Below are positions 4,472-36,259 of a stretch of DNA of 37,346 bases, piece by piece. Source of the stretch: an uncultured Acetobacteraceae bacterium (GTDB lineage Bacteria; Pseudomonadota; Alphaproteobacteria; Acetobacterales; Acetobacteraceae); NCBI GenBank assembly GCA_937873205.1, contig CALMVO010000036.1:1501-38846 (forward strand), read 5' to 3'. Below the pieces are notes generated by a model, which saw only the letters and a program-made list of their open reading frames with translations, was not told the DNA's origin and made no database searches. The number at the start of each line of letters is the position of its first letter. Position 1 is the stretch's first letter. The position numbers were made by a program, and so were the translations under genes.

Positions 4472-4741
4472 GCAACTAGTATGGCACTAAAAGGTGGCAG
4501 GATGATGTTTCGTGCGCGCATCACGTCTTCCCGCGCACCGGGACGCGGGACCGGTCGCGAGGCGACGAAGCCCGTGCCGCGACATCCGTTCGGGCAACGA
4601 TCAGCCTGGAACTGCAAGGACCCGTGAGCCGGATCGTCGCGCATGACCTGAAGGGCTGCGGCTGATCCTGCCTTCGAAATGTCACACCGCCGCCGATCGC
4701 CGCCCGTTAGAAACAGCCGAACCAAAACGGTCGAGCAATCA

Positions 4742-6610
4742 ATGATCCGGCGTCTCCTCTTCGGTTGCGTTCTGCTGGCGACGTGCCTGGTCGGCCGAAC
4801 GGCCCCGGCGACGGCGACGCCGGGCGTCCATGCCCTGCAGCTGCTGGCCCAGCGCTACGGCATCACTCAGGGCGAGATCGCCGGCTTCCTCGCCTCCCTG
4901 CCGGCACCGCAGATCGCCCTGCTGCAGCAGGACCTGGCCGAGATCCAGGCGCTCGCCCCGGCGCAGATCCAGCTCCTGCTCGACGGCGCGGTCGGCGCAC
5001 AGGGCCAGGCCGGCGGCAGCGGCCAGACCGTGGCCCGCTGGATCCAGATGGCGCCCGGCAGCTCGGTCGACGCCATCCTGGCGGGCTCCTGGGGCGACCA
5101 GCCCACCAGCATCTTCCCGACCATCCTGGCCCGTGCGGTGATCTCCGGCGGCGCCTGCCCGGTGGTCCGGCTGGACCGCGGCATCGTGGTGCCGATGCGG
5201 GTCCGCTTCACCGGTGCCCAGCTCACGAATGTCCCCGGCCACGCCGGCTCCACCAACGGCGCGGCGGGCTACCCGCAGTACTTCGTGCAGAACACCGCGC
5301 CGGCGAACTTCGCCAGCGGCGTGCCGATGGCCACCACGAGCTGGGCCGAGTGCGAGACCGTGCTGCCCTATGGCTTCAAGACCGCCAGTGTGGATGGCGT
5401 CGACCTGAAGCTGCCGGTGCTGTTCCCCAAGACGATCCTGGTCACCGCCGACACCGGCTGTCGCATGAACGGGGCGGTGGCCACCAACGGCGGCAACCAG
5501 CAGAACTGCTCGAGCCCGACCGCCTTCCCGTGGGCGTTCCTGGCCAGCTGGGAGGCGACCTTCAAACCGGACCTCATCGTTCATGTCGGCGACTGGTTCT
5601 ATCGCGACACCAACTGCAACAACACCTTCCCCGGCTGCCTCGACGCCACCAGCCCGAACTACGAGACCTGGGGCGACACCTTCGACAGCTGGAACGCCGA
5701 CGTGCTGTTCCCGGCCAACCCGCTGCTGGCCGCCGCCCCCTGGGTGATGACCCGCGGCAACCACGAGAGCTGCGGCCGCGGCGCTCGCGGCTGGTACGCG
5801 CTGCTCGACCCGTATCCCTACAACTACGCCAGCGTGTCCTGCGCCCCGTCCTCGCCGGCGACGCCCGCAAACGGGGTCGCCAACCACACGCCCGACTTCG
5901 AGCCGAGCTACGTGGTCCCGGCCGGCGGCGTGAACTTCCTGGTGCACGACAGCAGCCTGGCCAACGACAGCGCCGTCGCCACCGCGCTGGCGCAGAACTA
6001 CGACCTCGACCTCACCAACCTCATCAACGCAGTCGGCCCGAACTCCATCAACGTGTTCACCACCCACAAGCCGAGCTTCGGCCTCACCTATGGCGCCCAG
6101 GGCACCGCTTCCGCCCCGGACGACACCGCCGGCGACTATACCGAGCAGGCCGTCGTGGCCGGCGGCACCTATGCCGCCAGCGCCTTCGCTCAAGGCGTGC
6201 CGGCCAATATCGGCCTGTTCCTGTCCGGCCACATCCACCAGTTCGAATACGTGAACTTCGCCGACACCGCCCACTACGCGCCCCAGATGATCGTGGGGCA
6301 GGGCGGCACGCTGCTCGATCCGGACCTCAACACCGGCCTGGTGCCGGCCAACGGCACGCTCGATCCGGCCGCCTACGCGCAGACCGACGCGCCGTTCTCG
6401 GTCAACCAGATCACCGGCGGCGTGCTGACGGCGCTGGCGGCGAAAACCTATGGCCACGACGAGTTCGGCTTCGCGCTGCTGACCGTGCAGCGCGGCGCCG
6501 GCGGCGCGGTGACCGGCTTCGACGCCGCGGTCTACAAGGCCAGCTCGACGCTGGCCGGCCATTGCGCGATAGCACTCCGCCCGTCGCGCAACATCACGTG
6601 CGACTTCTGA
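4742..6610 (+). CDS. Secreted calcineurin-like metallophosphoesterase
   Basis: A 622-residue exported phosphoesterase. I chose ATG 4742 because it begins an evident signal peptide (MIRRLLFG, a Leu/Cys-rich core, then an Ala-x-Ala type site near residue 25); ATG 4679 would add 21 polar residues before it. An Ala/Gln-rich N-terminal region of about 100 residues precedes the catalytic domain. Metal-ligand motifs are in order: ADTGCR (Asp237, with a Gly-Cys pair instead of the usual D-x-H His), HVGDWFYRD (283-284), TRGNHESC (339-342), THKP, and SGHIHQFE. The D-T-G-C-R variant with GNHE-C-R-G-GW is a recognised bacterial branch of the superfamily. Many Cys residues fit an oxidising periplasm. It ends 19 bases before the SPFH gene cluster and may share its transcript. 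The substrate is unknown. Confidence 0.85.
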   Translation: MIRRLLFGCVLLATCLVGRTAPATATPGVHALQLLAQRYGITQGEIAGFLASLPAPQIALLQQDLAEIQALAPAQIQLLLDGAVGAQGQAGGSGQTVARWIQMAPGSSVDAILAGSWGDQPTSIFPTILARAVISGGACPVVRLDRGIVVPMRVRFTGAQLTNVPGHAGSTNGAAGYPQYFVQNTAPANFASGVPMATTSWAECETVLPYGFKTASVDGVDLKLPVLFPKTILVTADTGCRMNGAVATNGGNQQNCSSPTAFPWAFLASWEATFKPDLIVHVGDWFYRDTNCNNTFPGCLDATSPNYETWGDTFDSWNADVLFPANPLLAAAPWVMTRGNHESCGRGARGWYALLDPYPYNYASVSCAPSSPATPANGVANHTPDFEPSYVVPAGGVNFLVHDSSLANDSAVATALAQNYDLDLTNLINAVGPNSINVFTTHKPSFGLTYGAQGTASAPDDTAGDYTEQAVVAGGTYAASAFAQGVPANIGLFLSGHIHQFEYVNFADTAHYAPQMIVGQGGTLLDPDLNTGLVPANGTLDPAAYAQTDAPFSVNQITGGVLTALAAKTYGHDEFGFALLTVQRGAGGAVTGFDAAVYKASSTLAGHCAIALRPSRNITCDF

Positions 6611-6629: not shown

Positions 6630-8504
6630 GTGAACCGCACGCCGCTCCTGCTGCGTCGGCTCTGCCTCTCCACCCTCGGCCTCGCCGCCCTGCTGGCGGT
6701 GGCGCTGCTGGCCTGCCTGCTGGCGCCCCCGGCCGCCTTGGCAGCCGTCGCCGCAGCGATGCGTCAGTCCGGCGTCCCGGCGCTGCCGCTGGCCGCCCTG
6801 CTGCTGGCGGCCGGCCCGATGCTGGCCAGCCTCTTCGTCGCGCGGGCGCGGCCAGACGGCGCGCTCCCGCCGCATCCGGTCCCCGCCGGGGAGACCGCCC
6901 GGCGTAGCGCGCTGCTGCTGGTGCTGCCGCTCGCGCTGGCCGGCCTGGCGCTTGCGGCCTGGGTCGCGCGCCTGCCTCCCGACCCGGCCGCCGCTGCGGC
7001 GATGCCGATCGGGCTCGCCGTCGCCGCCACCGTGCTGGCGTTCCCGATGCTGGTCGGCGAGCGCCTGCGGGCTGCCGCCCCCCCCGCGGCGCTGCCGGAG
7101 GCGCCGGCGCTGCGCCGACTGGCGCTGGCCGCCATGCTCGTCGCCTTCGCCACCGGCCTGGTGGCGGTCGCCGCCGCCCTCGGCCTCGCCTGGGCGCCGA
7201 TCGCCCGGCGGGCGCTGGCGATCCCGGTGCTGCTGATCGGGGCCGAGCTCTCGCTGCGCGCCCTCGGCCGCCGCTTCCTGCCGCCCGGTCCGCCCGCCGC
7301 CGCCCGCGCCGTCGCCGACAGCCTGGCCGCCCGCCTGCTCGCCTCGCTCGCCCGGCTCGAGACCGGCGGTGACGGCTCCGCCGCCGCCCTGCTGCGCGAC
7401 CAGCTCGGCATCGACGTCTCGCGTTCCTGGGCGCTCGGCTTCCTGCGGGCCGCCGCCCTGCCGCTGGGGCTGGTGCTGCTGCTCTGCGCCTGGGCCCTGA
7501 GCGGGCTGGCGGTGGTGCCGATCGACGGCCGCGCGGTCTACCTGCGCCTCGGCGCTCCGGTCGCGGTGCTGCGGCCGGGCCTGCACGCCATCCTGCCGTG
7601 GCCGCTGGGCCGTGTCCGGCCGCTCGATGGCGGCGTGGTGCACGAGCTCGCGCTGGGCGAGGTCTCCCCTGGTGGCGCAACCGCCCCGGCCGCGGCCGGG
7701 GCCGAAGACGCCGACCCGGTCGGGGCCGACCGGCTGTGGGACCAGCCGCATCCGGGCGAGCTCACCCTGCTCGTCGCCAGCACCGCCGCGCGCGGCGTCG
7801 AGGACGCCGGCGATCCGGGGACCGAGCGGCAGCTGTTCCAGAGCGTCGCCGCCGACATCCGCGTGCTCTACCGGGTCGGTCTCGACGACCGTTCGGCGGT
7901 CCGCGCCACCACCGGCGTGCTGGACCCGGCGCGGCTGCTGCGCGCCGACGCCGACCAGGTCGTCGGCAGCGTCTTCGCCGGCAGCACGCTGGCACAGGTG
8001 CTGGGCGCCGACCGCGAGCGCCTGGCCTCCGCCCTGCGCGACCGCCTGCAGCGCCTGCTCGACCGCCAGCGGGTCGGGCTGGAGGCGGTGGCGCTGGTCA
8101 TCGAGGCGATCCACCCGCCCGCCGGCGCCGCCGAGGCCTACCACGCCGTCCGCGCCGCCGAGATCTCGGCCGACGCCTCCATCTACGCCGAGCGCGGCCG
8201 CGCCGCGACGGTGATGGCGCAGACCCGGCAATATGCCTTCGGCCAGAGCGCGGCCGCGGCTGCACGCGCCGCCGAGACCGCCGGCGAGGCGCGCTCGCTG
8301 CTGACCCGCTTCTCGGCCGACGCCGACGCGCATCGCCGCGACGGACCCAGCTTCCTGCTGGAGCGCCGGCTGACCGACCTCGCCGCCACGCTGGGCCGCA
8401 CGCCCATGACCATCCTCGACGCCCGCCTCGACGCCTCGGGCGCCACCACGCTGGACCTGCGGCCGATGCCGGGTGTGGCCCCCACCACCGGCGACGGCGA
8501 ATAG
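6630..8504 (+). CDS. SPFH/band-7 membrane protein with a polytopic N-terminal domain
   Basis: A 624-residue inner-membrane protein starting at GTG 6630. Residues 1-290 hold about six or seven hydrophobic segments rich in Ala and Leu; the last (near 275-292) leads directly into a band-7 start reading VVPIDGRAVYLRLGAP followed by RPGLHAILPWPLG, the usual HflK/prohibitin entry. An Asp/Glu-rich insertion follows, then the SPFH core (VAADIRVLYRVGL) and an Ala/Glu/Arg-rich coiled-coil tail (AEISADASIYAERGRAATVM). HflK and HflC form a membrane complex that modulates FtsH, but the large multi-span N-terminus is not part of classical HflK. It is the first of three adjacent SPFH genes, separated from the next by 2 bases, and lies upstream of a P-type ATPase. 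Confidence 0.82.
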   Translation: MNRTPLLLRRLCLSTLGLAALLAVALLACLLAPPAALAAVAAAMRQSGVPALPLAALLLAAGPMLASLFVARARPDGALPPHPVPAGETARRSALLLVLPLALAGLALAAWVARLPPDPAAAAAMPIGLAVAATVLAFPMLVGERLRAAAPPAALPEAPALRRLALAAMLVAFATGLVAVAAALGLAWAPIARRALAIPVLLIGAELSLRALGRRFLPPGPPAAARAVADSLAARLLASLARLETGGDGSAAALLRDQLGIDVSRSWALGFLRAAALPLGLVLLLCAWALSGLAVVPIDGRAVYLRLGAPVAVLRPGLHAILPWPLGRVRPLDGGVVHELALGEVSPGGATAPAAAGAEDADPVGADRLWDQPHPGELTLLVASTAARGVEDAGDPGTERQLFQSVAADIRVLYRVGLDDRSAVRATTGVLDPARLLRADADQVVGSVFAGSTLAQVLGADRERLASALRDRLQRLLDRQRVGLEAVALVIEAIHPPAGAAEAYHAVRAAEISADASIYAERGRAATVMAQTRQYAFGQSAAAAARAAETAGEARSLLTRFSADADAHRRDGPSFLLERRLTDLAATLGRTPMTILDARLDASGATTLDLRPMPGVAPTTGDGE

Positions 8505-8506
8505 CC

Positions 8507-9616
8507 ATGGACGGCCTGCACCATCCTCCCCCGCTCCACGACCATCCGTACGACCACGACCACGACCACGACGACAACGGGCACGGGCATGCCCATCACC
8601 ACCATCACGGTCCGGCCGGTCGGCTGACGCCGGCGGCGCGAGCGCGGTTCCTGCTCCGCGCCGCCGTCGCCAGCCTGGTCGTCGGCGCCGCCGTGCTCGC
8701 CACCACCGCCGTCACCGTCGAGGCCGGCCAGGCGGACATCATCACCCGATTCGGCGCCCCGGTGCGCGTCATCACCACCCCCGGCCTCGGCTGGAAGCTG
8801 CCGGCGCCGGTCGAGGCGGCGCTGCCGGTCGACCTCAGGCTGCGCACCACCGCGTCCGGGCTGCAGGATGTCGGCACCCGCGACGGCCTGCGCATCCTGG
8901 TGCGGGCCTACGTCGCCTGGCAGGTGCCGGCCGACGCGCGCGACATCCGGGTGTTCGTGCGCTCGGTGCGCGACGACCCGGACGAGGCGGCGCGGCAGCT
9001 GCGGTCGCTGGTGGGGGCGGCGCTGCAGGTGACCGCCAGCGGCTTCGACCTCGCCGACCTAGTGAACACCGATCCCGGCCGAGTGCGGCTCGACCGGTTC
9101 CAGCAGGTGCTGCGGCGGCAGGTCGAGGCCCAGCTGCGCCAGACCTACGGCATCGCCGTGCGCGAGGTCGGCATCGAACGGCTGGGGCTGCCGGAGACCA
9201 CGCTTGCCGCCACGGTGTCGCGGATGCGCTCCGAGCGCGAGACGGTGGCCGCCGAGCGCACCGCCGAGGGCCTGCGCCAGGCGGCCGAGATCCGCGCCGA
9301 CGCCGCCCGCGACAGCCGCATCGAGGTCGCGCGCGCCAACACCGAGGCGGCCGCGATCGAGGCGGCGTCGCGGCGCGAGGCCGCCGACATCCAGGGCCGC
9401 GCCTACGCGCTCGACCCGCAGCTCTATCTGATGCTGCGCAGCCTCGACACGCTGGGCGCCATCATCGGCCCCAACAGCCGTATCGTGCTGCGCACCGACG
9501 CCGCTCCCTTCGATGTGCTGACGCGCTTTCCCGGTGCCCCCACCCCGGCCGCCGCCCTCGCTCCCGCCGCCGGCGGGTCCGGCCTCGCTCCCACCGCCGG
9601 CGGGTCCGGACGGTGA
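8507..9616 (+). CDS. SPFH/band-7 protein, HflC-like, with a His-rich N-terminal tail
   Basis: A 369-residue protein starting at ATG 8507, two bases after the previous stop. The first 34 residues contain 14 His and several Asp, including HDHDHDHDD and a run of five His at 30-34, a likely cytoplasmic metal-binding tail. One membrane helix follows (AAVASLVVGAAVLATTAVTV), then the SPFH domain (ADIITRFGAPVRV, PGLGWKLPAPVE, DGLRILVRAYVAWQV) and an Ala/Glu/Arg-rich coiled coil (residues about 245-305) close to HflC in pattern. Near the C-terminus a 27-base tandem repeat encodes two Gly-Ser-rich units. The His tail next to a metal ATPase suggests metal sensing or delivery; this is inference. The stop overlaps the GTG start of the next gene. 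Confidence 0.85.
   Translation: MDGLHHPPPLHDHPYDHDHDHDDNGHGHAHHHHHGPAGRLTPAARARFLLRAAVASLVVGAAVLATTAVTVEAGQADIITRFGAPVRVITTPGLGWKLPAPVEAALPVDLRLRTTASGLQDVGTRDGLRILVRAYVAWQVPADARDIRVFVRSVRDDPDEAARQLRSLVGAALQVTASGFDLADLVNTDPGRVRLDRFQQVLRRQVEAQLRQTYGIAVREVGIERLGLPETTLAATVSRMRSERETVAAERTAEGLRQAAEIRADAARDSRIEVARANTEAAAIEAASRREAADIQGRAYALDPQLYLMLRSLDTLGAIIGPNSRIVLRTDAAPFDVLTRFPGAPTPAAALAPAAGGSGLAPTAGGSGR
9556..9609 (+). repeat. 27-base tandem repeat, two copies
   Basis: Units 9556-9582 and 9583-9609 differ at a single base and lie in frame at the 3' end of the His-rich SPFH gene, encoding two Leu-Ala-Pro/Gly-Gly-Ser units. It looks like a recent slippage duplication of a disordered tail. Confidence 0.8.
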
Positions 9617-10611
9617 GCGTGGCTGCGGAGAGGATCGCCTCGCCGGCGGACAGCCCGCTGCTGCAGTCTGTGGACATCGGCTTCCGGGTGCTGCGCGCCG
9701 CGACCGCGCTGCTCTTCGCGGCCTGGCTGCTCGGCAACGGCCGCATGGTCAGCCCCGGCAGCCAGGCCGTGGTGCTGCGCTTTGGCGCCGTCAGCCGAGT
9801 GCTGCCGCCGGGGCTGGCGCTGGCCTGGCCGCGCCCGTTCGAGCGGATGGTGATCCTGCCCGGCCCCGACCGGCAGATGCTGCTGCCGGTGCGGGCGACG
9901 GCGTCCGGCGAGCCGGGCACCTTCCTCTCCGCCGACGGCGAGGTGGTGCTGCTCGACGCGACGCTCGGCTGGCGCATCGGCGATCCCGCCGCCTACTATG
10001 TGGCGCAGGACCACGTCGCCGCGGTGCTGCGCCGCGTCCTTCTCGCCATCGCCACCGAGGCCGCTGCGCGGCACCCGCTCGACGACTTCCTGGCCGTCCG
10101 GCCGGAGCGCGCGCACGAGCCGGCGGCGCAGGACGCCCGCGTGGCGATCCGCGCCGAGCTGGTGCGGGCGATGAACCGCCGCCTCGCGGCGCTCGCCGCC
10201 GCCGGTGCCCCGCTCGGCGTCGAGGTCACCCGCGCCGACGTCACCCCGCTGCTGCCGCCGCTGGCCAAGCCGTCCTTCGACGCGGTACTGGACGCCGCCC
10301 AGCAGGCCGACGAGGCCACCGCGGCTGCCCGCACCATGGCGGTCCACCTGCGCCAGCAGGCCGACCATGACCGCGACCGCGTGCTGGCCGAGGCGCATGC
10401 GAGTGCCGCCGAGCGCATCGGCGCCGCGCGCGCGCAGACCGCCACGGTGACCGCGCTGGAGACCCATGCCGATGCCGCCGGCCGCCCGGCGATGCTGCTC
10501 GACCTCTACCGCACCCGGGTCGGCGCGGTGCTGCGCCAGGCCGGCAGCGTCACCACGGTCGGCGCCGGCGACGGCCGCGTGCTGTTGCCCGGCCCCGGCA
10601 ACGGCCGATGA
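9613..10611 (+). CDS. SPFH/band-7 membrane protein, HflK-like
   Basis: A 332-residue protein starting at GTG 9613, which overlaps the previous stop as GTGA, a sign of translational coupling. A single N-terminal hydrophobic segment (LRAATALLFAAWLLGNG) is followed by the band-7 domain: SPGSQAVVLRFGAVSRVLPP, PGLALAWPRPFERMVILP, then LLDATLGWRIGDPAAYYVAQ, the pattern typical of HflK. The C-terminal half is Ala/Glu/Arg-rich and probably forms a coiled coil (residues about 225-290). A cytosolic or periplasmic face cannot be decided from sequence alone. It is the third SPFH gene in a row; one HflC-like and two HflK-like members suggest a hetero-oligomeric membrane ring. Its last bases overlap the start of the P-type ATPase gene (ATGA). 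Confidence 0.82.
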   Translation: MSVAAERIASPADSPLLQSVDIGFRVLRAATALLFAAWLLGNGRMVSPGSQAVVLRFGAVSRVLPPGLALAWPRPFERMVILPGPDRQMLLPVRATASGEPGTFLSADGEVVLLDATLGWRIGDPAAYYVAQDHVAAVLRRVLLAIATEAAARHPLDDFLAVRPERAHEPAAQDARVAIRAELVRAMNRRLAALAAAGAPLGVEVTRADVTPLLPPLAKPSFDAVLDAAQQADEATAAARTMAVHLRQQADHDRDRVLAEAHASAAERIGAARAQTATVTALETHADAAGRPAMLLDLYRTRVGAVLRQAGSVTTVGAGDGRVLLPGPGNGR

Positions 10612-12569
10612 GCGCCACCGCGCTCCCGTCCGCCGCCGGCCTGGCGCGGCCGGCCGCGGCCGCTCCCTCGGCCGAGCGGGATGCTGGCGACAGCCTGCTC
10701 GGCCGCGCCGAGCGGCTGGTGCTGGCGGCCCGGCTCGTCGTGTCGATGCTGGCGACCGGTCTGCTGGCGATCGCCCTGCTCTGGCGCTGGCTGGTGCCCG
10801 GCGGTGCCGCGGTCGCCGACATCGCGTCGGGGATCGCGGCGCTGATGGTCAGCGTGCCGGTGCTGGTGGCGGCCTGGCACAGCCTGCGCCACCCGAGCCT
10901 GCACGGCGTCACCGACCGGCTGGTGGCGCTGGCGCTGGTCGGTGCCTGGGCCAGCGGCGACCTCGCCACCGCGGCGATCCTGCCGATCGTGATGACCGCG
11001 GCGCACGTCCTGGAAGAGCGCAGCCTGATCGGCTCGCGCGACGCCATCCGCGCCCTGCGGCGGCTGTCGCAGACCGCGGTGCGGCGGATCGTCGGCGACG
11101 GCCACGAGATCGTGCCCACCGCCGCGCTCTCTCCCGGCGACCGCATCGAGCTGCGCGCCGGCGACCGGCTGCCGGCCGACGGCATCGTGCTGGACGGCGA
11201 GGCCAGCCTCGACATGGCCAGCCTCACCGGCGAGTCCGTTCCGGTCGAGGCCGGCCCGGGCAGCGCCGTCTGCGCCGGCGCCATCGACCTCGACGGCCGG
11301 CTGGTGGTGGAGGTCACCCGGGTCGGCCGCGACTCCACGCTGGGCCGGATCATCGCGCTGATGCGCACCGCCGAGCACGCCAAGCCGCCGGTGACCCGGA
11401 TGCTGGAGCGCAACGCCGGCCGCTACTTGGCCTTCGTGCTGACCGTGGCGGCGGCGACCTGGTTCGCTACCGGCTCGGAGGCGGACACCCTCGCGGTGCT
11501 GGTGGCCTCCTGCCCCTGCGCGCTGGTGCTGGCCGCGCCCGCGACCGCGATCGCCGCCATCGCGGTCGCCGCCCGCCACGGCATCCTGATCAAGGGCACC
11601 GGCTTCCTGGAGCACCTGGCCGACGTCACCTCGGTGGTGTTCGACAAGACCGGCACGCTCACCACCGGCGAGCTGTCGCTGGACCGCGTGCTGCCCACCG
11701 CCCCCGACACCGACGCGGCGCTACTGCGGCACGTGGCCGCCTCGCTCGGCATCGGCTCCAACCATCCGGTCAGCCGCGCCGCGGTGCGCGCCGCCGGGGC
11801 GGATGGCGCCATGCCGGAGCGGGCGTCGCACCTGCGCGAGGCCGGCGGCTTCGGAATGACGGGCGAGGTGGGGGGCGAGCCGGTGGCGTTCGGCCGGCCG
11901 GAGCTGTTCGAGCGGCTGGGCATCGCACCGCCGCCGGCGCCGCCGCATGACGGGCCGATCGCCGGCGTGTCGCGCGGCGGCCGCTTCCTCGGCTGGCTGC
12001 TGTTCGCCGACCCGGCCCGGCCGGAGGCGGCCGCGGCGCTGACCGCCCTGCGGCGCCTGGGGCTCGGTCGCCAGATGCTGCTGACTGGCGACCGTGCGCC
12101 CGTCGCTTTGCGGATCGCCGCCGCACTCGGCATCGACGACGTCGTTGCCGAGGCGCTGCCGGAGGGCAAGATGCGCCACGTGCTGGCCGAGGTGGCTCGC
12201 GGCGGCAGGCCGCTGGTGGTGGGCGACGGCATCAACGACAGCCTGGCGTTGAAGGCGGGCGCGGTCGGCATCGCCATGGGCGCCCAGGGGACCGACGTGG
12301 CGCTGGCCTCCTCGGACCTGGTGCTGCTGACCAGCGACCTCGGCCGCCTCGGTACCGCGATCCGGCTGTCCCGCCGCTGCCGTCGCACCATCGGCGTCAA
12401 CGTGGCGCTGGGTCTCGGCTGGACGCTGCTGCTGATGGCGCTGGCCGCTCTGGGGGTGCTGGGCGCGGAGGGCGCCGTGATCGCCGCCCTGCTGCACAAC
12501 CTCTCGACCTTTGCCGGCCTGGCCAACTCCGGCCGCCTGCTTCTCTTCGACGAAACCAAGCCCTCCTAA
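10608..12569 (+). CDS. P1B-type heavy-metal-transporting ATPase
   Basis: A 653-residue ATP-driven metal transporter of the inner membrane. Motifs in order are TGES 207-210 (actuator), CPC 302-304 (metal site in a membrane helix), DKTGT 346-350 (phosphorylated Asp), NHP 385-387 (P1B-specific His-Pro in the nucleotide domain), TGD 493-495 and GDGIND 539-544. There is no N-terminal CxxC metal-binding domain. The last helix reads HNLST (630-634) rather than the Met/Ser pattern of Cu+ pumps or the Asp-Gly pattern of Zn/Cd pumps, so the cation is not assignable. The ATG overlaps the preceding stop. It closes a four-gene unit with three SPFH proteins; the His-rich tail encoded two genes upstream may act as its metal-binding domain in trans (inference). 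Confidence 0.9.
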   Translation: MSATALPSAAGLARPAAAAPSAERDAGDSLLGRAERLVLAARLVVSMLATGLLAIALLWRWLVPGGAAVADIASGIAALMVSVPVLVAAWHSLRHPSLHGVTDRLVALALVGAWASGDLATAAILPIVMTAAHVLEERSLIGSRDAIRALRRLSQTAVRRIVGDGHEIVPTAALSPGDRIELRAGDRLPADGIVLDGEASLDMASLTGESVPVEAGPGSAVCAGAIDLDGRLVVEVTRVGRDSTLGRIIALMRTAEHAKPPVTRMLERNAGRYLAFVLTVAAATWFATGSEADTLAVLVASCPCALVLAAPATAIAAIAVAARHGILIKGTGFLEHLADVTSVVFDKTGTLTTGELSLDRVLPTAPDTDAALLRHVAASLGIGSNHPVSRAAVRAAGADGAMPERASHLREAGGFGMTGEVGGEPVAFGRPELFERLGIAPPPAPPHDGPIAGVSRGGRFLGWLLFADPARPEAAAALTALRRLGLGRQMLLTGDRAPVALRIAAALGIDDVVAEALPEGKMRHVLAEVARGGRPLVVGDGINDSLALKAGAVGIAMGAQGTDVALASSDLVLLTSDLGRLGTAIRLSRRCRRTIGVNVALGLGWTLLLMALAALGVLGAEGAVIAALLHNLSTFAGLANSGRLLLFDETKPS

Positions 12570-12581
12570 AAAAACGGATCG

Positions 12582-12625
12582 CAAAGGCTCGCCTTTGCTG
12601 GGGTCAAGGGGCAAAGCCCCTTGCC
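12582..12625 (-). repeat. Two-hairpin palindromic repeat, family A copy 1
   Basis: Hairpin one is CAAAGGC/GCCTTTG (12582-12597) and hairpin two is CAAGGGGC-AAA-GCCCCTTG (12605-12623), linked by a short GGGT-type spacer. It lies between the convergent ATPase and GGDEF-EAL genes and could act as a bidirectional terminator. The GGDEF-EAL stop codon (12604-12606) and its last residues, ARGFAP, are encoded inside the repeat. Confidence 0.8.
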
Positions 12626-14802
12626 TCCGCCTCGGCCGCGACGTCCGCCCGCCGCCTGAGCACGGCCTCGTGCTGCTTTCCCAGCATTGGGGCGACATCC
12701 TCCGCCGCCATCGGGCGTCCCAGCAGGAACCCCTGCACGATGCCGCACCCGGCCGTCCGCAGCGCCTGCAGCTGGACGTCGTCCTCGACCCCTTCGGCCA
12801 CCACGACGAGCCCCATCTCGTGTCCGAGCCGCACGATCATCTGCACGATGGCGGTCGCACTCGGCCGGTCCTGCAACCCGCTCACGAACGAGCGGTCGAT
12901 CTTGATGGTATCGACCCGGTAGCGGTCCAGGTATCCGAGCGACGAGTAGCCGGTGCCGAAATCGTCGAGCGCCACGCGGATGCCGGTGCGGCGGATGCGC
13001 TCCAGGATCTCGCCGATGCGCTCGGGGTGCTGCAGGAAGACGGTCTCGGTCACCTCCAGCTGCAGCAGATGCGGGTCGAGGCCGGTGCGGTCCAGCGTCT
13101 CCAGCACGTCGGCGGTGTAACGGGCGTGCATCAGCTCGCTCCCGGAGCTGTTGACGTTGAGGTAGAGCTCCAGCCGCGGGAACTGCTCGCGCCAGCTCCG
13201 CATCTGCCGGCACGCCTGGTCCATCACCCAGCCGTCCAGCTCGCGGATCAGTCCCATCTCCTCGGCGATCCGCACGAAGGCGTCCGGCGGCACCAGCCCG
13301 CGCCGCGGATGCTGCCAGCGCACCAGCGCCTCCAGGCCGAGAATGCGCCGGCTCACGGCGTCGCAGATCGGCTGGTAGTGGACGCGAAGCTCCGCACGCG
13401 CCAGCGCCTGCCGCAGGTCGGTGCGCAGCGCGAACGCCTCCAGCGCCTCGCCGCGCATCGCCTTGGTGAACACGACGCAGCCGGTGTCGCCAGGGCCGCC
13501 GCGGGCGCGATACGTCGCGATGTCGGCGTCGCGCAGCATCCCCTCCGGCGAGCCGTCGCCATCCGCCACGTGCGCCAGCCCGAGCCGACCGGACGAGAAC
13601 ACCGTCTGTCCCATGAGCCGGAACGGCCTGCGGATGCTGGCCGCGACCCGCTCGGCGAGGCTGGTCGCCGCCTGCAGGTCGCCGCGCAGCAGGATGGCGA
13701 ACTCGTCGCTGTCGAGCCGGGCCAGCGTCGCGTCCAGAGGGCGGACGCAGGCCTGCAGGCGCCGCCCCACCTCGATCAGCAGCGCGTCGCCGGCATCGTG
13801 GCCGAGGCTGTTGTTGACCAGTTTGAAGCGGGCCAGCGCGAGCCGCAGCACGGCGCAGCCGCGGCCGCGTTCGGCGGCACCCCAGTCGAGCGCCTCCCGC
13901 AGCCGCGCGATCAGGCAGGCGCGGCTGTGCAGCCCGGTGAGCGAGTCGTGGTGCGCCTCGAACAGCAGTCGCGCCTCCGTCCGCTGCCGCTCGCGCACCT
14001 CCTGCTCAAGCGCCCGCGCGTGGCGCCCCGCCTCGGCCAGCATCTCTTGCTGTCGCTCCTGCAGCTGCCGCAGATCGTGCACGTCGGTGGTCGAGCCGAG
14101 CCATTCGACGATCCCGCCGGCGGCGTCGCGGACCGGCAGGGCGCGCGTCCGATGCCACAAATGGGCGCCGTCGAGCTGCCGCCGGACCCGGAACGTGGCA
14201 TCGAGCTGGCCGTGCGGCCGCGCCTCCTCCCAGGCGGCGAGCGCGCCCGCGCGATCGTCCGGGTGGAGGGCGCCGAGCCAGCCGCGGCCATGGCTCTGCG
14301 CCTGGGTCTGGCCGGTGAAGTCGAGCCATTGCGGGCTGGCCCAGCACCAGTCGCCGAGATCCGACGATCGCCACAGCAGCTGCGGCACCCCCTCGATGAA
14401 GCCGCGCAGCCGCTCCGACTCCTCGTCCGATCGCAGCAGGCGCAGATGCAGCTCGTCCAGATCGTCCGAGCCGCCGATCCATCCGGAACCGCCGTCCGCG
14501 GCGGCCGCGACGGTGCGATGCCAGCGATAGGCGCCGTCGGTGGCGCGGCGGATGCGGTGCTCGACGCAGCACCGGCCGGACACCGGCGCAGGCGCCCACG
14601 CCTGCAGGCTGGCCCGGCAATCGTCCGGATGGATCGCGTCCAGCCAGCCGAGCCCGAGGCTGGCCGCGTCGGAGAGCCCGGTATAGGCGCTCCACCCGGC
14701 ACCGGACCAGCTGCGCTCGCCCGCCGCGTCGCACGCGAAGACGAGGTAGGGCAGCGCCGCGATCAGCTCGCGCGGCAGGGCAAGGTCGTGTCCGTTGCTC
14801 AA
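12604..14802 (-). CDS. [14 protein letters not shown] cyclic-di-GMP signalling protein
   Basis: A 732-residue soluble sensor protein. Two PAS domains (residues about 12-110 and 130-243, both with HPDD and W-RT/R-type PAC signatures) precede a short coiled coil (245-282), a GGDEF domain (283-450) and an EAL domain (462-715). The GGDEF signature is degenerate, LDSDEF at 363-368, so cyclase activity is doubtful. The EAL side keeps EALVRW (491), DDFGTGYSSL, KIDRSFV, VAEGVE and QGF, so c-di-GMP phosphodiesterase activity is likely. The start is TTG 14802, supported by AGAGG six bases upstream. The C-terminal ARGFAP tail and stop codon come from the adjacent palindromic repeat. No membrane helix is seen. 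The 251-base gap upstream suggests its own promoter. Confidence 0.9.
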   Translation of the reverse strand: MSNGHDLALPRELIAALPYLVFACDAAGERSWSGAGWSAYTGLSDAASLGLGWLDAIHPDDCRASLQAWAPAPVSGRCCVEHRIRRATDGAYRWHRTVAAAADGGSGWIGGSDDLDELHLRLLRSDEESERLRGFIEGVPQLLWRSSDLGDWCWASPQWLDFTGQTQAQSHGRGWLGALHPDDRAGALAAWEEARPHGQLDATFRVRRQLDGAHLWHRTRALPVRDAAGGIVEWLGSTTDVHDLRQLQERQQEMLAEAGRHARALEQEVRERQRTEARLLFEAHHDSLTGLHSRACLIARLREALDWGAAERGRGCAVLRLALARFKLVNNSLGHDAGDALLIEVGRRLQACVRPLDATLARLDSDEFAILLRGDLQAATSLAERVAASIRRPFRLMGQTVFSSGRLGLAHVADGDGSPEGMLRDADIATYRARGGPGDTGCVVFTKAMRGEALEAFALRTDLRQALARAELRVHYQPICDAVSRRILGLEALVRWQHPRRGLVPPDAFVRIAEEMGLIRELDGWVMDQACRQMRSWREQFPRLELYLNVNSSGSELMHARYTADVLETLDRTGLDPHLLQLEVTETVFLQHPERIGEILERIRRTGIRVALDDFGTGYSSLGYLDRYRVDTIKIDRSFVSGLQDRPSATAIVQMIVRLGHEMGLVVVAEGVEDDVQLQALRTAGCGIVQGFLLGRPMAAEDVAPMLGKQHEAVLRRRADVAAEAEARGFAP

Positions 14803-33895: not shown

Positions 33896-34367
33896 TCTTC
33901 TCGTTGTCGCCACCCTTCGGCGGCGTCCTGGTGAGCTTCGCCTTCAGGTACCCGTAGGCATGCAGCATCTTGGAGTTCGGCGCGTCCCAGTATTCAGCGC
34001 CGGACACGTCAACCCGCAGCAGCGCCAGGTCCGGGTCGTCCTTACCCTTCGGGAACCACGTGGTCAGGATCTCGCTCCAATGCGCGTCGATCGCCACGCC
34101 GTCGCGCACCACCGTGGCCGTGCCGGAGAACGACACGTAGTTCTGCGAGCCTGGATCGGCATAGGTGACGCCCACCTCATGCTCCGCCCGCACCTCGCCC
34201 ACCTTCGGCGCGTGCTCGCGCGTGAAGAACCACAGCGTGCCGTCGAATTCCGTCTGGCTTGCCGCCATCGGCCGCGCCCGCAGGTGGCCGTCATCCTCGG
34301 TGGTCAACATGGCGATCTTGGTCGACTTCATCATCGACCACAATTTGTCCCGCTGGTCCTGGTCCAT
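33882..34367 (-). CDS. PPOX-fold flavoprotein, general-stress-protein-26-like
   Basis: A 161-residue cytoplasmic protein of the pyridoxamine-phosphate-oxidase-like split-barrel family, FMN or F420 binding. Visible features are KIAMLTTEDDGHLRARPMAA at the N-terminus, GTLWFFTREHAPKVGEV, NYVSFSGTATVVRD and a C-terminal W/Y-rich segment (SGAEYWDAPNSKML). I chose ATG 34367 because GGAG lies six bases upstream; the long upstream frame is low-complexity shadow. General-stress 26-like proteins are mostly uncharacterised, so no reaction is assigned, and a true pyridoxamine oxidase is unlikely given the divergent sequence. It is divergent from the DUF2141 gene and overlaps the upstream membrane-protein gene tail to tail by 14 bases. 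Confidence 0.85.
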   Translation of the reverse strand: MDQDQRDKLWSMMKSTKIAMLTTEDDGHLRARPMAASQTEFDGTLWFFTREHAPKVGEVRAEHEVGVTYADPGSQNYVSFSGTATVVRDGVAIDAHWSEILTTWFPKGKDDPDLALLRVDVSGAEYWDAPNSKMLHAYGYLKAKLTRTPPKGGDNEKISVG

Positions 34368-34491
34368 TCTCGGCTCCTTCATCCGTAATAGAAAAGCCGG
34401 GGCCGGCGAAGGTTGCGCCCGAACGTTGCGCCGAGCCCCGATCCGGGGGACGGTGCGGCCGCGCATGGACCAGGAAGGCAAGCCCCCAGAG

Positions 34492-34995
34492 ATGTTTCGG
34501 AGATCGTCCCGGCTCGCGGCGGCCCTCCTGCTGTCGGCCGCCCTCTCGGCCCCGGCCCGGGCCGACGCTCCGGCACCCGCCCCCGTGCACGCCGCCGCCT
34601 GCGACGCACCCGTCGTCACCGCCGCCTGGCCCCGCATCCACATCCTGGCGACCGGCGCCCGACGCGTCGCCGGCAACGTCACCTTCACCCTCTACGGCGA
34701 CGACCCAAAAACCTTCCTGAAGCACGCCGGCTCGCTGCTGGTGACCCGCGTGACCCTGACCGGCCCCTCCGCCGAGGGCTGCATCGCCGTCTCCGCCCCC
34801 GGCACCTTTGCCCTCGCCATCTATCACGACGAGAACGACAACCACCATTTCGACCGCACCCTGCTCGGCCTCCCGGCCGAGGGCTACGGCTTCTCCAACG
34901 ACGCGCCGACGCTGCTCGGACCGCCCGCCTTCGCCGCCACCCGCTTCGCCGTGCCCGCCGCCGGCACCCGGCTCAGCATCCGGCTGCGCTACTGA
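34492..34995 (+). CDS. Secreted DUF2141-type protein
   Basis: A 167-residue exported protein. ATG 34492 begins a clear signal peptide (MFRRSSRLAAALLLSAALSA, then PARADA); ATG 34465 would add nine polar residues. The mature domain contains GTFALAIYHDENDNHHFDRT and GLPAEGYGFSNDA, the hallmark of DUF2141, a beta-sandwich with a likely metal or ligand loop at DENDN. Members are periplasmic or surface proteins of unknown function, often beside envelope or polysaccharide genes. It lies 16 bases upstream of the GT4 glycosyltransferase, so the two are probably co-transcribed. Confidence 0.82.
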   Translation: MFRRSSRLAAALLLSAALSAPARADAPAPAPVHAAACDAPVVTAAWPRIHILATGARRVAGNVTFTLYGDDPKTFLKHAGSLLVTRVTLTGPSAEGCIAVSAPGTFALAIYHDENDNHHFDRTLLGLPAEGYGFSNDAPTLLGPPAFAATRFAVPAAGTRLSIRLRY

Positions 34996-35011
34996 CCGCC
35001 GCCAGGCGACG

Positions 35012-36259
35012 ATGAAGATCCTGTTCGCGTTCGAGAACCCGCTGCCGAGCCCGCAGGCGGATGCCGAGGTGTTCGTCGCCACCGCGCGCGCCCTGGCCCC
35101 CCTGGCCACCCGGGCCTGGCTGCACCTCCCCGTCGCCTGCATTGCCAACGCCGACGCCCATCCCCCCGGCCTCGCCATCCTGCCCGCCTGGGCCCCGCTG
35201 CGACCGGCCGCCCTCCGCCACCTCTGCTGCGGCCTCACCCTCGTGCTGCGCCCCGCCTTCCGCCAGGCCGACCTAGTCTACACCCGCAACCTCTGGGTCG
35301 CCTGGATGGCGATCCTGTTCGGCCAGCGCGTGGTGTTCGACCACTACCGGCCCTGGCCCGACCAGATCCCGCCGCTGCAGCGCTGGCTCCACCGCCTGAT
35401 GGGCCGCCGCCGCTTCCTGCTCAACATCTGCCATTCCGACTACACGATGGAGAAGTACCGGGCGCTCGGCATCCCGCCCGGCCGCCTCGCCTGCGTCCGC
35501 AACGGCCACGAGCCGACGCGCCTGCAGGCCCTTATCCCGGCCGACGCCGCCAAGCGCGCACTCGGCCTCGACCCCGCCCGCACCACGGTCGTCTATACCG
35601 GCCGCCTCAACCACCGGAAGGGCCTGGCGCTGGCTCTCGGGGCCGCCGCCCTGCTGCCCGACATCCTGTTCCTGCTGGTCGGTTCCGCCGGCGACGGCCC
35701 GATCGAGCGCCTCGCCGCCGCCCACCCCAACGTCCGCATCGTCGGCTGGCAGCCGCCCGACCGCCTCGCCGCCTACCTCTTCGCGGCCGACATCCTGCTG
35801 ATCCCGCCCTCCTGGAAGCCGCTCGCCGAGTTTGGCTCCACCGTCCTGCCGCTGAAGCTGTTCCTCTACATGGCCGCCGAGCGCCCCATCGTCGCCGGCG
35901 AGACCCCCGACGTGCAGGAGCTGCTCACCCACGGCCGCAACGCCCTCCTCTGCCGCCCCGACCATGCCCCCGCCCTGGCTGACGCGATCCGCACCCTGGA
36001 TGCCGACCCCGCACTCGGCGCCCGCCTCGCCGCCACCGCCCGCGCGGACGGCGCCACCCAGACCTGGGACGCCCGCGCCCACCGTATCGCCACGCTCATC
36101 GAGCAACGCCTGCACACACCCCCGGCCCCAAAGGTCGCCTGGAACCACGCCCAGTCCCGCACCTGGCGAAGGCAATCCTGGCGCTGGCTCTCCCATCTCC
36201 TCCACACCAGATCCTGGGTGCTGCCGCCCGAAGGCAAGGCAAGGGGCGCTGCCCCTTGA
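35012..36259 (+). CDS. GT4-family glycosyltransferase
   Basis: A 415-residue GT-B enzyme that transfers a sugar from a nucleotide donor, probably to a growing surface glycan on the cytoplasmic face. The acceptor half has VYTRNLWVAWMA, the linker VRNGHEP, and the donor half VVYTGRLNHRKGLALAL, VGSAGDGPIERL and AAYLFAADILLIPPSWKP. The C-terminal block reads PLKLFLYMAAERPIVAGETPDVQELL; the usual Glu of KLFEYMA is Leu here, while the second Glu remains. The last residues KARGAAP and the TGA stop are encoded by a palindromic repeat, so the native C-terminus may have been replaced. It follows the DUF2141 gene and leads into a flippase. Confidence 0.9.
   Translation: MKILFAFENPLPSPQADAEVFVATARALAPLATRAWLHLPVACIANADAHPPGLAILPAWAPLRPAALRHLCCGLTLVLRPAFRQADLVYTRNLWVAWMAILFGQRVVFDHYRPWPDQIPPLQRWLHRLMGRRRFLLNICHSDYTMEKYRALGIPPGRLACVRNGHEPTRLQALIPADAAKRALGLDPARTTVVYTGRLNHRKGLALALGAAALLPDILFLLVGSAGDGPIERLAAAHPNVRIVGWQPPDRLAAYLFAADILLIPPSWKPLAEFGSTVLPLKLFLYMAAERPIVAGETPDVQELLTHGRNALLCRPDHAPALADAIRTLDADPALGARLAATARADGATQTWDARAHRIATLIEQRLHTPPAPKVAWNHAQSRTWRRQSWRWLSHLLHTRSWVLPPEGKARGAAP

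Follow-up and report, generated by a model that had tools for sequence, protein, structure and literature searches.

What would three different SPFH proteins do when they are encoded next to a metal pump? HflK/HflC forms a cage that encloses FtsH and leaves its AAA part sticking out. The question is raised by four genes at positions 6630-12569 of a 37,346-nucleotide stretch of DNA from an uncultured Acetobacteraceae bacterium (contig CALMVO010000036.1, positions 1,501 to 38,846), the whole of which was analysed and is called the window below. The original prediction, made from this sequence, described three different band-7 proteins followed by a P1B-type ATPase, coupled by a 2-base gap and by 4-base start/stop overlaps. 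This description holds throughout: Band_7 of Pfam matched all three SPFH proteins above its cut-off (g1 1.5e-13, g2 8.9e-26, g3 3.8e-18), TIGR01525 matched the ATPase, and the coordinates give a 2-base gap between g1 and g2 and 4-base overlaps of start and stop between g2 and g3 and between g3 and g4. The genes and their features are:

6630..8504, + strand: g1, 624 amino acids, GTG start; HflK-like SPFH protein with a multi-span N-terminal part, an SPFH domain and a long helix
8507..9616, + strand: g2, 369 amino acids, ATG start; HflC-like SPFH protein with one span (Band_7 8.9e-26)
8519..8608, + strand: His-rich N-terminal tail of g2, residues 5-34, read from the sequence and preceding the membrane span
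9613..10611, + strand: g3, 332 amino acids, GTG start; third SPFH protein, HflK/HflC-like, with one span (Band_7 3.8e-18)
10608..12569, + strand: g4, 653 amino acids, ATG start; P1B-type metal ATPase, HmtA-type (TIGR01525, 494 bits)
11511..11519, + strand: CPC of the metal site in g4, residues 302-304 (conserved in 95% or more of 32 sequences)
11643..11657, + strand: DKTGT, the phosphorylation motif in g4, residues 346-350 (conserved in 95% or more of 32 sequences)
12495..12509, + strand: HN..T motif close to the C-terminal end of g4, residues 630-634 (conserved in 95% or more of 32 sequences)

We regard the window unit, with little room for doubt, as an hmtA-type operon, and we consider it likely that g1-g3 are dedicated functional partners of the pump. 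The unit has the layout of such an operon, with three closely spaced SPFH genes on the same strand and then the gene of a P1B ATPase. This kind of unit is not new, being matched by the Pseudomonas aeruginosa hmtA cluster (PA2434-PA2439), which was reported in 2015 as a gene cluster uniting three HflK/HflC-like genes with a P-type ATPase (PMC4542158; the papers cited here are represented by the portions available to us). What is new, within our searches, is the joint inheritance of the four genes and the His-rich tail of an SPFH protein. A literature search over open PMC papers found no paper on a strict pairing of SPFH proteins with the ATPase, on HmtA together with SPFH proteins, or on a His-rich tail of the second SPFH protein. 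One of the units that we collected, L074, is situated downstream of a GCV_T gene, at a distance of about 3 kb, and is taken here, partly from its neighbour genes, as a near relative of the PA2434-PA2439 cluster (GCV_T as a landmark worked in one of 13 genomes, G308). Its g4 is 60.7% identical to the window g4, but L074 has an extra gene between g3 and g4 and a His-rich tail on the ATPase as well, which the window g4 lacks; unlike the hmtA cluster, the window unit also has no Zur-like box.

A total of 41 units was compared (the window, L008, L050-L057, L058-L064, L070-L080, L091-L094 and L101-L109), of which 40 are distinct because L060 and L078 are one contig. They were collected through g2 (the window and its second copy through Band_7), so g2 is present in all of them by construction; L065 and L066, at 31% and 29% identity, were left out as non-orthologues. 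A contig scan by peptide patterns, one of them a His-rich stretch, gave at least nine loci, and the patterns were poor. The four-gene order, which the original prediction had pointed to as worth following into other genomes, was kept in 41/41 units. Together with a second full unit in the same genome, this makes the layout more than a matter of chance. Spacings of at most 30 bases were found in 38 of the 40 units measured for g1-g2, in 40/40 for g2-g3 and in 26/40 for g3-g4, with the other 14 g3-g4 spacings explained by an extra gene (ten loci, nine distinct) or a gap of 40-55 bases (four loci). The extra gene of about 150-160 codons (L050, L060, L070-L074 and L078-L080; e.g. L070:11155-11607) has a signal-like N-terminus, is PA2436-like by position and, in the L070 copy, gave no Pfam match. 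Starts were chosen automatically in this comparison, so the lengths, gaps and tails of some genes are uncertain, among them g2 of L079, g2 of L109 and g4 of L054. A search of the 41 unit neighbourhoods found no FtsH gene, and the ATPase gene in all 41; with no FtsH there, the pump gene takes the partner position of FtsH, as had been predicted.

The four genes share one history. Their pairwise tree distances over 39 units correlate at 0.956-0.983, against 0.425 for the best of 1000 permutations per pair; the trees were built without L078 and L105, both of which are counted among the 41. Since the permutation control keeps shared ancestry, this correlation attests joint inheritance and not contact. 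As a separate observation, g4 of L105 (G585:C34) is a partial ATPase match holding a TGA, which marks either a decayed copy or an assembly error.

The source genome (3.73 Mb, 155 contigs) contains seven Band_7 matches, of which the window and contig C47 hold three each; the seventh, on C31, is a protein labelled stomatin-type in this analysis. The three genes on C47 also precede a P1B ATPase gene and form with it a second complete unit (L008, about 42012-47701, minus strand), which stops about 15 bases short of the edge of its contig, so that no promoter is visible. Gene by gene from g1 to g4, the window unit and L008 are 45, 54, 43 and 59% identical. In all four genes, the nearest neighbour of the window copy is L063 and those of the second copy are L101-L103. 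The two copies belong to different sub-lineages in every gene, so they were most simply acquired separately and without gene exchange; a recent duplication as their origin was rejected on the same grounds. Beyond the two units, no further HflK/HflC-like pair was found among all seven Band_7 matches, and one FtsH in the genome, on C65, scores above the family cut-off.

The order is not confined to this genome, nor does the SPFH protein tested, g2, occur mostly without the ATPase, the two outcomes at odds with the original prediction: g2 and g4 orthologues were found in identical genomes in two samples of 299. These pairing tests used g2 and g4 as queries, and the genome searches were run with a two-sequence query, scoring the best four to six candidates per genome. 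Among 299 genomes of the phylum, both orthologues occurred in exactly the same nine, with the source genome among them. The g2 search gave nine genomes at E <= 2.2e-125, the next best among the matches listed being 4.5e-41, and some match at 1e-25 was obtained in 182 genomes; the g4 search at E <= 1e-140 recovered the same nine, the weakest at 2.1e-246. In the order sample, also of 299 genomes, g2 at E <= 1e-60 and g4 at E <= 1e-100 shared one set of nine, again including the source genome; in three congeners neither g2 nor g4 was matched. In the genus of G058, g2 was present in 13 of 25 genomes. The units of Pseudomonas are orthologous to that of the window (phylum sample: E <= 2.2e-125 for g2 and E <= 2.1e-246 for g4; named loci L059-L062 and L064). 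Among the carriers with a name are Acidisphaera sp., Pseudomonas citronellolis and P. akapageensis.

The pairing extends to plasmids, where ten records carried g2 (E <= 1e-20) and the same ten carried g4 (E <= 1e-60), namely seven from Rhizobium and one each from Burkholderia, Paraburkholderia and Klebsiella. Four of the ten records were opened and contained all four genes by tblastn, three of them annotated as an HflK/HflC/SPFH trio plus P-type ATPase and the fourth unannotated; for the other six the comparison was limited to the positions of g2 and g4. As far as our searches reach, this strict pairing of g2 and g4 across alpha-, beta- and gammaproteobacteria and plasmids is new. Two plasmids, L092 (Klebsiella aerogenes plasmid pYD-K10_1) and L091 (a Burkholderia ubonensis plasmid), were typed conjugative and have transposase genes within a few kilobases of the unit.

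Pfam recognised E1-E2_ATPase (1.1e-46) and the HAD hydrolase part in g4. The protein scores above the cut-offs of the heavy-metal P1B family (TIGR01525, 494 bits vs 346.25) and the cadmium subfamily (TIGR01512, 441 vs 313.5), and below those of the copper subfamily (TIGR01511, 334.5 vs 397) and of the Zn/Cd/Pb exporter ZntA (NF033775 / NF008262, 266 vs 1240 and 297 vs 1005 bits). The P1B motifs C302-P-C304 and D346KTGT are present, and the 32 sequences in which C302-P-C304 and H630-N631-x-x-T634 are kept at 95% or more include the window and the second copy. Identity to the ATPases of other units is 53-68%. Two structurally characterised P1B ATPases, ZntA (4umv) and that of 7qbz/7qc0, resemble g4 in overall P1B sequence and motifs, and ZntA also shares the CPC; the HN..T of g4, however, aligns with a D-containing stretch in ZntA and with HEGST in 7qbz, which moreover has SPC instead of CPC.

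Against TIGR01933 (hflK), g1 gave 9e-11 and g3 2.1e-14 over residues 45-313 (41.7 and 53.6 bits vs 159.4), and g2 gave 7.8e-24 against TIGR01932 (hflC; 84.1 vs 134.4), so that the equivalog cut-offs were not reached. The extra multi-span domain ascribed to g1 by the original prediction was borne out by hydropathy, with seven hydrophobic spans in its N-terminal part (about residues 1-298), the last one directly before the SPFH domain, whose Band_7 match covers residues 404-524. The spans also appear as helices in a low-confidence AlphaFold2 (AF2) model; over the 41 units, a crude count gave seven spans in 20, six in 15, five in 3 and four in 3. The AF2 models of g1 and g2 were built from eight sequences and are poor, with a mean predicted local distance difference test (pLDDT) of 57.7 for g1 and 54.9 for g2; within g1, the SPFH stretches 301-340 and 401-490 reached 67-89 and the insertion 341-400 reached 32-53. 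Foldseek returned HflK/HflC first for both models and then prohibitin and stomatin chains, and the profile search with g2 matched HflC chains of the PDB. Because the models are poor, the fold matches say "SPFH" only. HflK-HflC shares with the window proteins the SPFH domain, the single span before it (g2 and g3) and the long helix after it (g1 and g2 models), and is the closest among solved structures in both the sequence and the model comparison. The window unit differs in having three proteins instead of two, extra spans in g1, a His-rich tail on g2, scores below the curated hflK/hflC cut-offs, and a P1B ATPase as partner gene with no FtsH nearby.

With a His-rich tail defined as at least five His in 30 residues, g2 carries one before its only span in 33/41 units, the second copy included, and g4 carries one in 20/41, the window g4 having none. 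The orientation of HflK/HflC is periplasmic (PMC2636767), and the g2 span is flanked by four basic residues before it and one after it. From these two points, the His-rich tail of g2 is expected on the cytoplasmic side and its SPFH part in the periplasm.

For the hmtA cluster of P. aeruginosa, up-regulation in a znuA mutant amounted to 5.6-fold for PA2435 (HmtA), 14.4-fold for PA2437, 10.6-fold for PA2438 and 9.0-fold for PA2439, and a weak putative Zur site was described (PMC4542158). Proteomics under zinc depletion showed higher levels of HmtA and PA2437-PA2439, with significance stated for PA2438 and PA2439 (PMC11761036), the PA2439 promoter was shifted by Zur plus Zn (PMC8531726), and calprotectin treatment raised HmtA (PMC8557868). 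HmtA is described as a Zn/Cu importer in one review (PMC8456098), and according to another, which cites Lewinson 2009, its overexpression led to Zn/Cu hypersensitivity and to higher cellular Zn and Cu (PMC10393844). A 2026 survey of nine P. aeruginosa SPFH proteins presents PaFlo5-6-7 of strain PA14, which we infer to be PA2437-PA2439, as one three-SPFH operon additional to HflK-HflC; HmtA, ATPase, copper, transporter and PA2435 are all terms that its main text does not use (PMC13086221). Its discussion gives slightly less biofilm and attenuated larval virulence for the PaFlo5-6-7 deletion, and its abstract states that SPFH proteins are not essential for biofilm and larval virulence (PMC13086221).

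A Zur-like box (a score of at least 8 of 10) occurs within 300 bases upstream of g1 in 19/20 Pseudomonas-type units, vs 15/972 control windows, and in 5/17 other units, vs 28/827 control windows. The Pseudomonas-type group was scored without L078, and the other group of 17 without L105, L008 and the window; genomes of family f34 were grouped with Pseudomonas by kinship, as L078 matches a P. citronellolis contig and named Pseudomonas loci are nearest. In the source genome, a Fur-family gene lies beside znuA with a Zur-like box between them, and a second Zur-like site (9 of 10) was seen near this Fur-family gene (G000:C30:45905).

The surroundings of the window unit begin with one gene directly upstream:

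4679..6610, + strand: calcineurin-like metallophosphoesterase gene (PF00149, 3.7e-10), 19 bases before g1

In L063, a metallophosphoesterase (248-1804) that is 43% identical to it also stands directly before the unit. The remaining 39 unit loci that were fetched, some of them reaching little beyond the unit, gave no match. As a general unit member this gene was rejected, since it was found only in the window and L063; it is possible that it represents a lineage-specific fifth member. Directly downstream, on the opposite strand, lies a PAS-GGDEF-EAL protein gene (12604-14802), which was rejected as a partner because two matches in other loci sit at other positions. Further away, the GC skew is -0.216 at 34001-36000, compared with about -0.01 to -0.13 in the rest of the window.

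The explanation that accounts best for the whole, and that we hold to be somewhat probable, is an hmtA-type operon in which the pump has dedicated SPFH partners forming a housing. The ATPase g4, of the HmtA clade, would transport Zn(II)/Cu through the inner membrane, most probably inward, as we infer for both metal and direction. The proteins g1, g2 and g3 would assemble in the manner of HflK/HflC, as a ring or dome that faces the periplasm and surrounds the membrane part of the pump, the cytosolic ATPase domains of g4 would stay outside this dome like the AAA part of FtsH, and many copies of the His-rich cytosolic tail of g2 could bind metal at the cytosolic mouth of the pump. The SPFH ring around the pump that was envisaged in the original prediction is plausible, and for the stronger statement that the pump is physically enclosed by the SPFH assembly the prospects seem to lie slightly below even. 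To our knowledge, there is no structure of a bacterial pump with three SPFH proteins. PDB titles of the Foldseek matches name HflK/HflC in complex with FtsH, and for an SPFH dome with a transporter inside there is precedent in stomatin, which encapsulates AQP1 and UT-B (PMC12407830). The stomatin dome, as described there, is likewise an SPFH assembly enclosing a transport protein, the arrangement proposed for the window unit; it is, however, eukaryotic, consists of stomatin and holds a channel and a facilitator, whereas the unit here is bacterial and combines an ATP-driven pump with three different SPFH proteins.

Several observations weigh against this explanation. Both AF2 models, each of a single chain, are poor (57.7 and 54.9). 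The charge rule is silent for g1 (2, 2) and g3 (1, 1), so it supports the topology for g2 only, and as the span count of g1 also varies, its SPFH domain may lie on either side of the membrane. Seven of the 41 units (L058 and L104-L109) have no His-rich tail on either g2 or g4. Zur control of the window unit was searched for, and no Zur-like site of at least 8/10 was found anywhere in the window; neither was a box found in the eight order-level loci scored (two of them ending near g1), nor in L058 and L063. A different or distant Zur site may exist at the window unit. In P. aeruginosa, the level of hmtA mRNA remained low and was not reduced by adding zinc (PMC8531726), a review excepts hmtA from the Zur-bound promoters and wants import confirmed (PMC10393844), and a triple SPFH deletion grows unimpaired in rich medium (PMC13086221).

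Alternatively, the SPFH trio might modulate the zinc protease FtsH during zinc limitation and be co-transcribed with the pump only via a shared metal response. This would agree with the matches of g1 and g3 to hflK and of g2 to hflC models, with a genome that has one FtsH above the cut-off and no other HflK/HflC-like pair among its seven Band_7 matches, and with the FtsH (HflB) link mentioned in a zinc proteomics preprint (PMC11761036). However, none of g1-g3 reaches the curated hflK/hflC cut-offs, FtsH is found in 0/41 neighbourhoods and the ATPase in 41/41, and the three-SPFH operon of P. aeruginosa exists alongside HflK-HflC (PMC13086221), all of which renders a role with FtsH decidedly unlikely; canonical HflK/HflC acting with FtsH, as the identity of the unit, was rejected by the cut-offs and the neighbourhoods. 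An efflux system, in which g4 would export Zn/Cd/Cu for resistance and the SPFH proteins would stabilise it in the membrane, appears unlikely as well. Against it stand the induction of the P. aeruginosa cluster on zinc depletion, the shift of the cluster's first promoter by Zur with Zn (PMC4542158, PMC8531726), and the Zn/Cu hypersensitivity and accumulation reported for overexpressed HmtA (PMC10393844). In its favour, g4 passes the cadmium-family cut-off, units are carried on plasmids, two of them typed conjugative, and the window unit is without a Zur box. Also on the side of efflux, most P1B pumps are exporters (PMC8456098), and import by HmtA has been judged unusual and in need of confirmation (PMC10393844).

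It is also conceivable that the SPFH genes encode general microdomain organisers and that their pairing with the pump stems from co-regulation and joint horizontal transfer, with no complex being formed. Many SPFH proteins are thought to act generally, the patchy distribution and the plasmid carriage favour linked transfer, and linked transfer alone would also give joint inheritance. We consider this improbable, as no g2 without g4 and no g4 without g2 was found in either 299-genome sample at the thresholds used, and no swapping had occurred between the two units of one cell.

If the pump is indeed housed by its SPFH partners, the units might represent widespread, horizontally moving caged metal importers with a periplasmic dome and a ring of His tails collecting ions, and the cage may enable a P1B ATPase to take up metal on the periplasmic side and transport it inward; we put this forward as a speculative extension, with the chances leaning against it. 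Only a minority of bacterial SPFH proteins have a known client, and the strict pairing gives the PaFlo5-6-7 trio a probable client together with a condition for testing it, zinc limitation. The unit may likewise help to explain metal import by HmtA, a member of a family that consists mostly of exporters. If true, the caged importer would be, as far as is known, the first bacterial SPFH assembly with a transporter, not a protease, as its obligate client.

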